The notes beneath the pieces are model-generated. The model did no database searches. It had not been told where the DNA came from and saw nothing but the letters and a program-made list of their open reading frames with translations. The translations under genes were made by a program, and so were the position numbers. 64,000 nt of DNA from an uncultured Roseateles sp. (GTDB taxonomy: Bacteria; Pseudomonadota; Gammaproteobacteria; Burkholderiales; Burkholderiaceae_C), in the NCBI RefSeq assembly GCF_913777145.1, contig NZ_CAJYPS010000034.1, forward strand, positions 62,001 through 126,000, in the 5' to 3' direction. Within the stretch, counting starts at the first letter, position 1. Each line of letters starts with the position of its first letter. Positions 17,282 to 32,245 of this stretch are shown piece by piece.

Positions 17282-18211
17282 TCAGACGCGATCAATGATC
17301 TTCTCCCCGAACAGCCCCTGAGGCCTCACCAGCAGCACGCCCAGCACCAGCACATAGCCGAACCAGTACTCGATGCCGCCGCCCAGCAGCGGGCCCAGGT
17401 AGGCCTCGGACAGCTTCTCGCCCACGCCGATCAGCAGGCCGCCGACGATGGCGCCGGGCACGCTGGTGAGTCCGCCCAGGATGACCACCGGCAGCGCCTT
17501 CAGCGCCACCAGCGACAGCGAGAACTGCACGCCCAGCTTGCTGCCCCAGATCATGCCGGCCACCAGCGCGACAAAGCCTGCCACGCTCCACACGATGACC
17601 CAGATGTGCGACAGCGGAATGCCAATGCTCTGCGCGGCCTGGTGATCGTCGGCCACCGCACGCAGCGCGCGGCCGGTGGCGGTCTTCTGGAAGAACAGGC
17701 TTAAAGATGCCACCAGCGCCGCGGCGATCAGCGCCGCGTACAGGTCTTCCTTGCTGACCAGGATGCCGCCCTCGAACTGCTGCTCGAGCAAGAACATCGG
17801 GTCCTTGGGCAGGCCGATGTCTATCTTGTAGATGTCGTTGCCGAACAGCATCTGGCCCAGGCCTTCCAGCAGGTAGGCAATGCCCAGCGTCGCCATCAGC
17901 AGCGTCACGCCCTCCTGATTCACCAGCCGCGACAGCGCCAGCCACTCCACCAGCCAGGCCACCACCACCATCACCACCAGTGCGCCGGCAAAGGCCAGCA
18001 GGTTGATCAGCAGCTTGTCCTCCAGGCCCGTGAGCCGCGGCAGCCATTCGGCCAGGCGCGCCATCGCCAGCGCCGCGAACAGCACCATCGCGCCCTGCGC
18101 GAAATTGAAAACGCCGCTGGCCTTGAAGATCAGCACAAAGCCCAGCGCGATCAGCGAATACAGCATGCCGGCCATCAGGCCGCCAATGAGAGTCTCAAGG
18201 AATGGTCCCAT
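17282..18211 (-). CDS. livH: HAAT ABC transporter permease (LivH type)
   Basis: 309 aa from the ATG at 18211, with GAGGGG about 8 nt upstream; a GTG one codon earlier (18214) is possible. LivH hallmarks are GGLMAGMLYSLIALGFVLIF at the N-terminus, GVFNFAQGAMVLFAA, and the conserved C-terminal block RPQGLFGEK. About eight membrane helices. It partners LivM and starts 10 bp after livG in the leftward operon. Confidence 0.92.
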   Translation of the reverse strand: MGPFLETLIGGLMAGMLYSLIALGFVLIFKASGVFNFAQGAMVLFAALAMARLAEWLPRLTGLEDKLLINLLAFAGALVVMVVVAWLVEWLALSRLVNQEGVTLLMATLGIAYLLEGLGQMLFGNDIYKIDIGLPKDPMFLLEQQFEGGILVSKEDLYAALIAAALVASLSLFFQKTATGRALRAVADDHQAAQSIGIPLSHIWVIVWSVAGFVALVAGMIWGSKLGVQFSLSLVALKALPVVILGGLTSVPGAIVGGLLIGVGEKLSEAYLGPLLGGGIEYWFGYVLVLGVLLVRPQGLFGEKIIDRV

Positions 18212-28326: not shown

Positions 28327-29451
28327 TCAGCGCCGCGCGTGCACCGCCGCCGACAGCACCTCCAGCACCTCGCGGGAGTCGTCCCAGCCCAGGCAGGCGT
28401 CGGTGATGCTCTGGCCGTAGACCAGTTGGGCCGGGTCGTCCTTGCCGGGCGTGAACTTCTGGGCGCCGTCGTTCAGATGGCTTTCCACCATCACGCCGAA
28501 GATGCGGCGGCTGCCGGCCTGCATCTGGGCGGCGATGTCACGCGCCACGTCCAGCTGGCGCTCGTGGCGCTTGGAGCTGTTGGCGTGCGAGCAATCCACC
28601 ATCAGGCGCTCGGGCAGCTTGGCCTTGGCCAGATCGGCGCAGGCGGCCGCGACGCTGTCGGCGTCGTAGTTGGGCGCCTTGCCGCCGCGCAGGATCACAT
28701 GGCAATCGGGGTTGCCGCGGGTCTCGACAATGGCGACCTGGCCGTTCTTGTGCACCGACAGGAAGTGATGGCCGCGCTCGGCCGCCTGGATCGCATCGGT
28801 CGCGATCTTGATGTTGCCGTCCGTGCCATTCTTGAAGCCTATGGGGGCGGACAGACCCGAGGCCAATTCGCGGTGCACCTGGCTCTCGGTAGTGCGTGCG
28901 CCGATTGCGCCCCAGGAGATCAGGTCGCCGATGTATTGCGGCGAGATCACGTCCAGGAACTCGGAGCCCGCCGGCATGCCCAGGCGGTTGATCTCCAGCA
29001 GCAGCTGACGCGCGATGCGCAGGCCCTCGTCGATGCGGTAGCTCTCGTCGAGATACGGGTCGTTGATCAGGCCCTTCCAGCCCACCGTGGTACGCGGCTT
29101 CTCGAAGTAGACCCGCATCACGATCTCCAGCGTGTCGGCGTACTTCTCGCGCTGCTCCTTCAGGCGGCGCGCGTACTCGATGGCGGCCGTCGGGTCGTGG
29201 ATGGAGCAGGGGCCTATGACCACCAGCAGGCGGTCGTCCTGCCCCGCCATGATGCGGCGTATGCGCTGGCGGGTCTGGCTGATCAGCTGCTCCATCGGCG
29301 TGTTGCGGATGGGGAAGAAGCGGATCAGGTGCTCCGGCGGCGGCAGCGGCGTGATGTCGAGGATGCGCTCGTCATCGGTGGCGCTGGTCTTGTCGTCCTG
29401 CGAGTACCAGCGCTGGGCTTCGGGTTCGACGGACTTGATGGTCGCATTCAT
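28327..29451 (-). CDS. aroG: 3-deoxy-7-phosphoheptulonate (DAHP) synthase, AroG type
   Basis: 374 aa from the ATG at 29451 (MNATIKSVEP; an in-frame ATG 5 codons upstream lies against the terminator). Class I DAHP synthase condenses phosphoenolpyruvate with erythrose-4-phosphate, the first step of the shikimate pathway. Motifs: VVIGPCSIHDP, AGSEFLDVISPQYIGDLISW, GARTTESQVHRE, KNGTDGN and MVDCSHANSSKR. The leader upstream holds an aromatic-rich peptide and an intrinsic terminator, so expression should fall when charged Phe/Tyr/Trp tRNAs are abundant. Which amino acid inhibits the enzyme itself is not visible. Confidence 0.95.
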   Translation of the reverse strand: MNATIKSVEPEAQRWYSQDDKTSATDDERILDITPLPPPEHLIRFFPIRNTPMEQLISQTRQRIRRIMAGQDDRLLVVIGPCSIHDPTAAIEYARRLKEQREKYADTLEIVMRVYFEKPRTTVGWKGLINDPYLDESYRIDEGLRIARQLLLEINRLGMPAGSEFLDVISPQYIGDLISWGAIGARTTESQVHRELASGLSAPIGFKNGTDGNIKIATDAIQAAERGHHFLSVHKNGQVAIVETRGNPDCHVILRGGKAPNYDADSVAAACADLAKAKLPERLMVDCSHANSSKRHERQLDVARDIAAQMQAGSRRIFGVMVESHLNDGAQKFTPGKDDPAQLVYGQSITDACLGWDDSREVLEVLSAAVHARR

Positions 29452-29464
29452 CTTCGGGCACCTC

Positions 29465-29503
29465 AAAAAGAAAAACCGCCGGGCTTTGGGGGCCCGGCGG
29501 TTT
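29465..29503 (-). terminator. Intrinsic terminator (attenuator) in the aroG leader
   Basis: On the minus strand a 12-bp perfect stem (AAACCGCCGGGC at 29492-29503 with its complement at 29473-29484) with a 7-nt loop runs into TTTTTCTTTTT (29465-29475), which ends 13 nt before the aroG ATG. A strong terminator between promoter and coding region on the same strand is the mark of transcription attenuation. Confidence 0.9.
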
Positions 29504-29531
29504 CAGGGGATTCGGTTGGCGCTGCGCGCGT

Positions 29532-29600
29532 TCACCTCTCCTGCGCCGGGGGGCGGCAGAAGAACCAAAAGAACGCAAAGTAGGCGCGTGCGAAATGCAT
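29532..29600 (-). CDS. aroG leader peptide (22 aa)
   Basis: ATG at 29600, stop at 29534-29532. The 22-residue peptide has six Phe, one Tyr and one Trp; codons 7-14 read YFAFFWFF. It ends 29 nt before the terminator stem. Codons 17-19 (Pro-Pro-Ala) contain CCCGGCG (29544-29550), which can pair with CGCCGGG in the 5' arm of the terminator (29493-29499) and so could form an antiterminator when a ribosome stalls on the aromatic codons. No clear Shine-Dalgarno is seen before the ATG. The rest of 29601-29756 shows no gene. Confidence 0.85.
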   Translation of the reverse strand: MHFARAYFAFFWFFCRPPAQER

Positions 29601-29756
29601 GGGCTGGAATCTAGCACGCCGCGCAAGACCCGGCTTCGGCGCCGCACAAAGCAGCCATCGCGCGCCGCGACGGCAGGGGCAAGCCCGGCTTGACCCGCCG
29701 CCCGTCTTGCCGGTGAATGCAGCCACCCTTCACGACAACAAGCAGAGGAGACACGC

Positions 29757-30548
29757 ATGCAACGACGCCTTGCCCTGGGCAGTGCGCTGACCGGCCTGGG
29801 TGGCCTGGTCGCCAGCGGCTGCGCCAGCACCGCCGCCCCGACCGCCACCGCGGCCACGCCCTTTGCGCTGGCCCAGCCCAGCGTGCCCATCGCCGGCAGC
29901 ACCGAGGTCTTCCCGGTTCGGCGCATCTACTGCATAGGCCGCAACTACGCGGCGCATGCGCGCGAAATGGGCTCGGACCCGACGCGCGAGCCGCCCTTCT
30001 TCTTCCAGAAGCCCAGCGACGCGGTGCAGTTCGTTGCGCCGGGCCGGACCACCGACCACCCCTACCCGCCGCTGACCAAGAACTACCACTACGAACTGGA
30101 ACTGGTGGCGGCGCTGCACCGGGGCGGCCGCAACGTGCCGGTTGAGCGCGCGCTGAACCTGGTCTATGGCTACGCGGTCGGCCTGGACATGACCCGCCGC
30201 GACCTGCAACGCGGCATGGGCGACCAGAAGAAGCCCTGGGAAATCGGCAAGAGCTTTGACCGCTCCGCGCCGATTGGCCCCATACACCGCGTGGCGCAGG
30301 TGGGCCACTTCAAGCAGGGCGCGATCACGCTGAAGGTGAACGGCCAGGTCAGGCAGAACGCCGACCTGAACCAGATGATCTGGAGCGTGGCCGAGCAGAT
30401 CGCCAAGCTGTCGGAAGCCTTCGAGCTGATGCCCGGCGACCTGATCTACAGCGGCACGCCGGAGAACGTGGGGCCGGTGGTGCCGGGGGATTTGATGGAA
30501 GGGACGATTGCGGGCTTGCCGCTGCTCAGCGTCAAGGTCGTGGCCTAG
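29757..30548 (+). CDS. Fumarylacetoacetate hydrolase-family protein with lipoprotein-like signal
   Basis: 263 aa. The FAH fold is clear: RRIYCIGRNYAAHAREMG, FFFQKPSDAVQF, a metal-binding HYELELVAALHR, and LMPGDLIYSGTPENVGPV near the end. The family hydrolyses C-C bonds of acylpyruvates such as fumarylpyruvate. What is unusual is the N-terminus: MQRRLALGSALTGLGGLVAS followed by GC, with twin arginines and a lipobox-like cysteine at about residue 21. Relatives are cytoplasmic, so this one appears to be exported, perhaps by Tat, and lipid-anchored. RBS GGAG lies 9 nt before the ATG. Confidence 0.85.
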   Translation: MQRRLALGSALTGLGGLVASGCASTAAPTATAATPFALAQPSVPIAGSTEVFPVRRIYCIGRNYAAHAREMGSDPTREPPFFFQKPSDAVQFVAPGRTTDHPYPPLTKNYHYELELVAALHRGGRNVPVERALNLVYGYAVGLDMTRRDLQRGMGDQKKPWEIGKSFDRSAPIGPIHRVAQVGHFKQGAITLKVNGQVRQNADLNQMIWSVAEQIAKLSEAFELMPGDLIYSGTPENVGPVVPGDLMEGTIAGLPLLSVKVVA

Positions 30549-30614
30549 CTACCTGGCATTCCCGGGCCGAGCGCTGGGCCTGCCATGGGCCACAAAGGCC
30601 CAAGGCGTTCCGTA

Positions 30615-30646
30615 GACACAAGCGGTCCGCGGGGACTGCTTGTGTC
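30615..30646. repeat. Long hairpin between convergent genes
   Basis: GACACAAGC (30615-30623) pairs with GCTTGTGTC (30638-30646), and the inside extends as GGTCC/GGACT with a CGCG-type loop. It resembles the structured modules elsewhere, but the flanking AGGACCGAG is missing. A second smaller hairpin lies near 30694-30711 (CGATGC/GCATCG). The interval 30549-30781 holds no gene; these may end both convergent transcripts. Confidence 0.5.
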
Positions 30647-30781
30647 CGACTCCACCTCACCGAGCCGGCCCGCTTGGGCGATGTGCTTGAGGCTCGATGC
30701 CGCAAGCATCGCCGTCCCCTCGGGGGGACCGACCAGGCTCGCCTGCGTTCAGCACGGCGAGACTGGCCGCGGGGCTCCGTT

Positions 30782-32245
30782 TCAGGCCGTGCCGCCCACC
30801 GTGAGCCCGTCGATGCGCAGCGTCGGCTGGCCCACGCCCACCGGCACGCTCTGGCCTTCCTTGCCGCACACGCCCACGCCGGTGTCGAGCTGCATGTCGT
30901 TGCCGATCATGCTGACGCGCGTGAGGGCGTCCGGGCCATTGCCGATGATGGTCGCGCCCTTGACCGGGTACTGGATCTTGCCGTTCTCCACCCAGTAGGC
31001 CTCGCTGGCCGAGAACACGAACTTGCCGCTCGTGATGTCGACCTGGCCGCCGCCGAAGTTGGTGGCGTACAGGCCCTTCTTGATGGACGCGACGATTTCC
31101 CTGGGGTCGTCCTTGCCGCCCAGCATGTAGGTGTTGGTCATGCGCGGCATGGGCAGGTGGGCGTAGCTCTCGCGGCGGCCGTTGCCGGTGGGCGCGGTCT
31201 TCATCAGGCGCGCATTCATCGCATCCTGGATATAGCCCTTGAGGATGCCGTCCTCGATCAGCACATTGCGCTGCGACGCGCAGCCCTCGTCATCCACGTT
31301 CAGCGAGCCGCGGCGGTCCGGCAGCGTGCCGTCGTCCAGCACGGTCACGCCCTTGGCGGCCACGCGCTGGCCCATGCGGCCGGCGAAGGCGCTGGAGCCC
31401 TTGCGGTTGAAGTCGCCCTCCAGGCCATGGCCCACGGCCTCGTGCAGCAGCACGCCGGGCCAGCCCGGGCCCAGCACCACGGTCATCTCACCGGCCGGCG
31501 CGGGGCGGCTGTCCAGATTGGTGAGCGCCGCTTGCACAGCCTGCTCCACATAGCTGGCCAGCATCTCGTCGGTGAAGTAGGCCAGGCCGAAGCGGCCACC
31601 GCCACCGCCCGAGCCCACCTCGCGGCGGCCGTTGCTCTCAGCGATCACGGTCAGCGACAGCCGCACCAGCGGGCGCACATCGGCCGCCAGCGTGCCGTCG
31701 GCACGCGCGATCAGCACCACCTCATGCTCGGCCGCCAGGCCGGCCATCACCTGGGTCACACGCGGATCCTTGGCGCGGGCCAGCTTCTCTATCTTCTCCA
31801 GCAGCGCAACCTTGGCGGCGCTGTCCAGGCTGGCGATGGGGTCGGCCATGCCGTAGAGCTCGCGGCTGCCCGCCACGCGGCCCTGGGCCGGCACCTTCAC
31901 CTTGCGGCTCTGGCCCGCGGCCGCGATGGTGCGCACGGTGCGCGCCGCGTCCAGCAGCGCGGCTTCAGAAATGTCGTCGGAGTACGCGAACGCGGTCTTC
32001 TCGCCGGCCACGGCGCGCACGCCCACGCCCTGGTCGATGCTGAAGGAACCGCTCTTCACGATGCCCTCCTCCAGGCTCCAGCCCTCGGCACGCGTGGTCT
32101 GGAAATAGAGGTCGGCGTCGTCGACCCGGTGCTCGGTGATGACGCGCAGCGCCTGACTCAGCGTGGCCTCGGTCAGGCCGAAGGGCTCCAGCAGTTGCGA
32201 GCGGGCGGTGGCCAGGCGGGCCAGGGTGGGTTCGACGGCGATCAT
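30782..32245 (-). CDS. tldD: Metalloprotease TldD
   Basis: 487 aa, the usual TldD length. The zinc site is [11 protein letters not shown], followed by [14 protein letters not shown]; the C-terminal beta domain includes [16 protein letters not shown]. TldD pairs with TldE (PmbA) to form a protease that degrades unfolded peptides, matures some modified peptides and acts on CcdA-type antitoxins. The TldE gene is not in the window. The gene is convergent with the FAH protein and probably monocistronic. Confidence 0.95.

Follow-up and report, generated by a model that had tools for sequence, protein, structure and literature searches.

The aroG gene of the window (the whole stretch of DNA analysed, 64,000 nucleotides) is preceded by an element that is very probably, at a probability of about 0.9, a ribosome-mediated transcription attenuator of that gene; its action in vivo is predicted from its sequence and from folding computations. 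The features of the locus, in the order in which the minus strand is read toward aroG, are as follows.

29757-30548, plus strand: divergent FAA-hydrolase-like gene; the leader lies between it and aroG.
29608..29616, minus strand: extended -10 promoter-like element TGCTAGATT, 7 nt 5' of the leader ATG, read from the sequence.
29600-29532, minus strand: leader peptide reading frame MHFARAYFAFFWFFCRPPAQER, 22 codons; ATG at 29600, with the stop codon included and ending at 29532.
29559..29582, minus strand: control codons 7-14, YFAFFWFF, read from the sequence.
29536..29564, minus strand: putative protector or pause hairpin 1:2, arm 29564-29552 with 29547-29536, from the fold of the window leader.
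29552-29544, minus strand: segment 2 CCCCCGGCG, predicted 5' strand of the antiterminator, in codons 17-19, from its complementarity to the terminator arm and covariation.
29492..29503, minus strand: segment 3 AAACCGCCGGGC, common to antiterminator and terminator, from complementarity and covariation in the alignment.
29504-29472, minus strand: intrinsic terminator hairpin 3:4, 13 bp with a 7-nt loop, from the fold and the alignment.
29475-29465, minus strand: T tract of the terminator TTTTTCTTTTT, 13 nt 5' of the aroG ATG.
28327..29451, minus strand: aroG, DAHP (3-deoxy-7-phosphoheptulonate) synthase, 374 aa, TIGR00034.

Much of this anatomy had been read in a first-pass annotation of the same DNA. 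The 22-codon reading frame on the aroG strand with its six Phe, one Tyr and one Trp, the YFAFFWFF block, the T tail ending 13 nt before the ATG at 29451, and the CCCGGCG of codons 17-19, an exact complement of CGCCGGG in the 5' arm of the terminator, are all as it described them. The GC-rich hairpin that it reported is likewise present, with nine G-C pairs, although the stem spans 13 bp and not 12. Its naming of the gene also held, the product being an aroFGH-type DAHP synthase that scores 541 bits against TIGR00034 (cut-off 173). The 3' arm of hairpin 1:2 (29547-29536) includes most of a conserved GGAGAGG. The folding z-score of the window leader region is -4.67, and none of 200 shuffles folded equally well. 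When all six frames of the window were scanned, the leader block was the sole stretch with seven aromatic residues in eight codons. Three other stretches contain six, two of which overlap the leader block and the third of which (WWWWPGWW, 17947-17970) falls within a permease-like gene but in another frame; none of 20 mononucleotide shuffles of the window attained six. Conservation in the family is a stronger test against chance than these window statistics. A second FFWFF match in the window genome (contig C18, locus L003) falls within a 402-codon transporter-like reading frame, which we take to be of the MFS type, and was set aside as irrelevant. Farther upstream, the next minus-strand gene (30782-32245, presumably tldD-like) has counterparts that end upstream of aroG in L066 and L147; in the window the FAA-hydrolase-like gene on the opposite strand separates it from aroG (29757-32245).

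In the mechanism that we infer, RNA polymerase would start at or within 1-2 nt of the leader AUG, as the position of the -10 element suggests, and a ribosome would load on the leaderless end and translate the short aromatic-rich peptide. With charged tRNA-Phe, tRNA-Tyr and tRNA-Trp plentiful, the ribosome would run past the last aromatic codon and cover segment 2, allowing the 3:4 terminator to form. With any of the three charged tRNAs in short supply, it would wait in the aromatic block, covering the 5' arm of hairpin 1:2; segment 2, left exposed, would pair with segment 3 and let transcription continue into aroG.

Of the 150 genomes in the GTDB family to which the window belongs, 149 gave an aroG match in a protein search, and the DNA upstream of the gene was examined in 143, the seven outside this count being G055 (no match), G040, G043, G068, G074, G112 and G115. 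The first-pass annotation had suggested conservation and covariation in relatives as a check; an aromatic leader followed by a terminator was present at all 141 assessable family loci, and the paired positions covary. The 141 include three leaders missed by the uORF finder and found by reading (L066, L132 and L084, the last with Ser in place of Trp). At L144 the contig end cuts the locus, so that the terminator is present and the leader lies beyond the end. No leader was seen upstream of aroG at L147 (genome G093, 55% complete), where the gene, at 64% identity, begins right after the preceding one. Family leaders are 18-29 codons long with a mean of 7.0 aromatic residues. An exact-pattern scan, which considers the pattern alone and not the downstream gene, included Polaromonas, Rhodoferax, Ramlibacter, Rubrivivax, Roseateles, Curvibacter and Thiomonas as hosts among the matches listed. 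Of the two DAHP synthase paralogues, only one carries the element: it was found before none of seven second copies (the window genome's own paralogue L002, L145 and L150-L154). The downstream gene of a tandem DAHP synthase pair, L146, is without it and the first gene of the pair has it; in G140 the leader adjoins the first gene of a tandem pair, which is not the best protein match. Phe codons in the 141 leaders are TTT 386 times and TTC 245 times (61% TTT). The aroG genes of 30 genomes have 13 TTT to 234 TTC (5%) and the leaders of those 30 have 86 to 66 (57%). In the leaders TTT may slow decoding or leave the block unstructured, two effects that these counts do not separate.

The consequences of ribosome position were computed by folding transcripts that end just before the last terminator arm under a static mask, with an assumed ribosome footprint of 28 nt. 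Over 134 leaders, the probability of the antiterminator helix, P(2:3), was 0.79-0.94 with the A site at codons -8 to 0 relative to Trp, then 0.67 at +1, 0.20 at +2 and 0.00 from +3 onward. In this computation, therefore, the stall position is predicted to decide between the two helices, with a sharp switch across Trp, +1 and +2. Mean P(2:3) in the 134 leaders was 0.57 with a ribosome at the stop codon and 0.41 without a ribosome, so that termination in many leaders, the window's excepted, would need the kinetics or order of events, or hairpin 1:2. For the window leader, P(2:3) was 0.85-0.86 at codons 10-13, 0.23 at codon 14 and zero after that; with no ribosome on the transcript it was 0.01, and a ribosome placed at the stop codon gave 0.03. 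Values were lower at codons 1-4 (0.02-0.03), Tyr7 (0.51) and Ala9 (0.33), with Phe8 at 0.80.

These results bear on which amino acids are sensed. The first-pass annotation had suggested that the peptide could pool all three products of the pathway, and the residue counts agree: Phe occurs in all 141 family leaders, Tyr in 138 and Trp in 132, with the three together in 129. It could be argued that Phe alone is sensed and that Tyr and Trp are incidental, given that Phe is the commonest of the three (19% of leader residues, compared with 7% for Tyr and 4% for Trp), that nine family leaders lack Trp and three lack Tyr, and that the leaders of several other families are without Trp. However, the near-constant presence of Tyr and Trp in the family speaks against this, as does the location of Trp, which in the masking computation on the family leaders is the last position whose stall still fully frees segment 2. 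We therefore regard sensing of Phe alone as unlikely.

In 136 of the 141 leaders an element resembling a -10 box (mostly TACATT) has its end 6-10 nt ahead of the leader start, at 7-8 nt in 114 of them, the start codon having been chosen partly by the position of this element. The extended form TGnTAnnnT lies at 6-10 nt in 131 of 141. Across the 81.5 kb of these regions that pattern occurs 133 times on the leader strand, 131 of them at the leader, and 12 times on the other strand. A Shine-Dalgarno-like motif was found at -16 to -3 of the leader start in none of 136 leaders, a stretch much of which is filled by the -10 element, and before the aroG start at 116 of 141 loci when either of two candidate ATGs was allowed. 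Since the -10 element lies only 6-10 nt before the AUG and no Shine-Dalgarno motif precedes it, the leader mRNA in the window's family is probably leaderless. A transcription start downstream of the terminator had been named at first pass as evidence that would count against attenuation; the likely promoter instead lies upstream of the leader. Among 34 leaders outside the family, a -10 element was seen in 16, with the TG in nine, which partly supports the same architecture there.

To follow the element beyond the family, a covariance model (R1) was searched in 200 genomes of the order, and a second (R2, 51 sequences) in samples of the class and phylum; the large genome searches used stricter Infernal filters, under which a non-match does not equal absence. 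At E <= 0.01, R1 matched 54 of the 200 order genomes, including five from the window's family. We inspected 28 of the best 30 loci, 25 of which lie outside the family, and all 28 precede a DAHP synthase, called in 27 cases by eye from the N-terminal motif and at L183 by position. In a direct look upstream of aroG, the gene was found in 93 of 120 order genomes, 90 of them outside the family; these 90 comprise 67 with upstream sequence, nine already matched by R1 and 14 outside the count. A leader with terminator was present at 16 of the 66 scored loci outside the family, some of the genomes overlapping the R1 set. The order families with the element are f1, f3, f4, f8, f10, f11, f12, f13, f20, f23, f32, f40 and f44. 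At the loci examined, the finder picked up no leader followed by a terminator in f2, f5, f6, f14, f15, f16, f18, f21, f22, f25, f26, f28, f30, f33, f39, f43, f45, f47 and f51, nor in some members of f4, f8, f10, f11 and f32. A Phe-rich reading frame that overlaps a terminator-like stem at L345 (f28) was taken for chance. In f22, terminators of like CCGCC/GGCGG sequence lie some 400 nt ahead of aroG at L344 and L349, where the script found no aromatic leader. Relatives without the element had been put forward at first pass as evidence against attenuation. Such relatives do occur, outside the family and at L147, with no trace of a leader; in our reading this control would be absent from them, which does not refute it for the window.

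Of 369 class genomes searched with R2, 47 gave a match at E <= 0.001; these matches were mostly weak, and weak matches were often bare terminators. Outside the order but in the same class, the element was confirmed in f63 (three genomes) and f68 (one). In the phylum sample 45 of 200 genomes matched, and the matches precede a DAHP synthase in f251, f254 and f258, which belong to another class; f251 and f254 we infer to be rhizobia. Nineteen further loci were taken from the phylum and class searches. Eleven precede a DAHP synthase (ten from another class or classes, and L429), three are pheA- or pheS-type leaders, one is an aromatic leader without a gene identified (L426), and four (L427, L428, L430 and L431) have no leader. 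The downstream genes were confirmed by NCBIfam as DAHP synthase at L411, L413, L419, L374 and L429, as pheA at L424 and as pheS at L423, and were read by eye at the remaining R2 loci. Recovery of the pheA- and pheS-type leaders serves as a positive control for R2. In all, the element occurs in 13 order families, one of them the window's, in two further families of the class and in three that belong to another class, and across these families it stands mostly before DAHP synthase. On a tree of 49 chosen DAHP synthases the element label needs seven changes, compared with a mean of 11.6 when labels are shuffled, and the f251 proteins lie beside those of f68 and f63. This pattern fits one old origin with losses plus transfer, and separate gains are a possible alternative.

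Several side observations came from the same searches. In the class genome G631, an aromatic leader VTVYPRNFYYFSSRFFFGRSGRLRCARV and terminator precede a prephenate dehydratase-like gene (L396), making this locus a candidate for another aromatic attenuator, of the Phe branch. At L429 (G883, f238) a leader-like reading frame LSCAVVFFFGYWFSRSRA and terminator precede a DAHP synthase whose best fit is PRK12755, which suggests that the theme recurs outside the AroG group. L426 (G740) has a leader-like reading frame MQSYVIDNFWWSFWWS with a terminator. The window genome itself gave a weak partial R2 match (G000:C14:423032-423113, plus strand, E 2.6e-4) that covers model positions 53-136 only.

The terminated leader could in principle act mainly in trans, as an sRNA or through its peptide, with control of aroG secondary. 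A short terminated leaderless transcript would arise under plenty, and rhizobial trpL is a precedent for a trans-acting terminated leader. However, the element stays beside DAHP synthase in the family and at most of the divergent loci inspected, as control in cis predicts, and we consider a mainly trans-acting role highly improbable.

Evidence for the attenuator helices themselves came from two alignments, A1 (140 family sequences; 141 were aligned, and L135, which has a long stem, was left out although its leader is present) and A2 (51 sequences from 14 families). In A1 the six terminator pairs of columns 115-120 form in 139-140 of the 140 sequences and the outer pairs form less often. The 2:3 helix is paired in 87.7% of cells, compared with 16-61% when the strands are slid, and its covariation score was matched by one of 500 shuffles, the cells being sequences and not independent events. 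Segment 3 changes from CCGCC to CCGTC in ten of the 140 sequences. In eight of the ten, and in none of the others, segment 2 changes from GGCGG to GACG(G), and the remaining two keep GGC, a G-U intermediate. Pair 47-119 is accordingly GC in 115 sequences, AU in eight, GU in two and unpaired in 15, and we read these 15 misses as fitting leaders whose segment 2 was placed one column off by MAFFT. The eight GAC leaders encode Val-x-Asp (Val-Thr-Asp in six), and all eight have CGTC just before GACG, which could pair in hairpin 1:2. Our impression, formed without a tree, is that the CCGTC set is one clade. In A2 a segment 2/3 pair is CG in 25 sequences, UA in 14 and unpaired in 12, and a segment 3/4 pair is GC in 30, AU in 18 and unpaired in three, with one segment 3 column common to both; neither covariation score was reached by any of 500 shuffles. 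The number of further pair types for 2:3 was not above that of shuffles (135 of 500 in A1, 500 of 500 in A2). With segment 3 shared and covariation on both helices, antiterminator and terminator are predicted to be mutually exclusive. Hairpin 1:2 (UUCUC:GAGAG) is paired in about 95% of cells over the 140 sequences and is nearly invariant; since it hardly varies in the family, covariation says little there. In f63, UUUCC was seen by eye together with GGAAG, which would be compensatory. The attenuator reading made at first pass is thus backed, with peptide, terminator and antiterminator kept in relatives and the helices covarying. The present analysis adds to it the probable leaderless mRNA, the putative hairpin 1:2, the restriction to one paralogue and the spread past the family.

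The alignments also indicate that RNA, not protein, is conserved after the aromatic block. The segment 2 core (consensus CCGGCGG) is read in frame 0 in 108 leaders, frame 2 in 26 and frame 1 in two (136 of the 140 scored). These shifts of frame, together with its covariation with the arm of the terminator, show that segment 2 is kept as RNA. This bears on whether the peptide itself stalls the ribosome on a free ligand, in the manner of TnaC, instead of codon starvation doing so. The family peptide is indeed strongly conserved around (Y/F)FWFS. However, the order and number of aromatic residues shift between families (FYFFFYFWSYL, FYFYFYGFLKP, YYFSFFFWFPS) and the part after the block changes frame, making nascent-peptide arrest very unlikely. 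That the reading frame encodes a small functional protein, with the terminator merely tuning an operon, is scarcely credible: the C-terminal residues kept in many leaders (RPGGGEASA, PGGREASA), which might suggest it, encode segment 2 and the GAGAG just after it in differing frames, and in 13 of the 136 scored leaders the stop codon comes ahead of GAGAG or at it, with GAGAG retained in all 13.

The codon-starvation attenuator was compared with known systems. Rfam 15 gave no matches in the window, and a relaxed search of 29430-29680 gave 11, all under gathering scores and none to a leader-peptide family. The pheA (PheL) and pheST leaders of enterobacteria likewise place an aromatic-rich reading frame and a terminator ahead of a gene of the aromatic pathway or of one for Phe-tRNA ligase; a pheA leader found by R2 reads MKTLSFFFAFFFTFP. 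Those leaders respond to Phe and regulate the Phe branch or PheRS, whereas the window element has Phe, Tyr and Trp codons, stands before the gene for the first common step and probably lies on a leaderless mRNA. The trpL of E. coli follows the same logic of helices 1:2, 2:3 and 3:4 with similar spacing, its control codons lying about 15 nt before segment 2, but it senses Trp only and controls the trp operon. The ilvGMEDA and thr attenuators show that one leader can sense several amino acids, in their case non-aromatic ones (branched-chain and Thr). In Sinorhizobium the trpL leader peptide is encoded on a leaderless mRNA, as is probable for the window's, but it is Trp-specific and precedes trpE(G), not aroG. 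Attenuation of DAHP synthase is of a kind already proposed, in Acholeplasma, Vibrio and E. coli / Shewanella. In Acholeplasma, uORFC-13-1 is a uORF with a terminator upstream of aroF, a DAHP synthase gene, with 24 representatives from Acholeplasma and environmental sequences and at least one Phe codon (PMC8632094); the window element is set apart by its lineage and by description, no pooling being described in the available portion of that paper. In Vibrio, attenuators were predicted before aroAI-alpha-Y > tyrA (PMC1173090), and an aroF attenuator was proposed for E. coli / Shewanella, citing Camakaris 1980 (PMC2659441). Both concern the Tyr-type isozyme, and as far as the available portions of these two papers go, no three-residue leader is given, which sets the window element apart by description. 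In the open-access literature searched, we found no description of this leader, and the family of leaders, the pooling of three products and the leaderless start appear undescribed there.

The element offers a natural sensor for strains that produce aromatic amino acids, and its compensatory changes display how an RNA switch and the coding sequence that overlaps it evolve jointly. More broadly, we give even odds to the view that it is one old device of the AroG-type DAHP synthase, a pooled Phe/Tyr/Trp attenuator, leaderless in the window's family, that has travelled with its gene, by descent or by transfer, through two classes or more and whose codons have been retuned by lineage, with Trp kept or dropped. 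If so, much of the phylum would govern its entry into the shikimate pathway by this device, where E. coli uses the TyrR/TrpR scheme. The textbook account of DAHP synthase control was drawn from E. coli, which has three isozymes and two repressors; sensing of all three end products by one attenuator at the committed step would solve the problem in another way, and one that is widely conserved.
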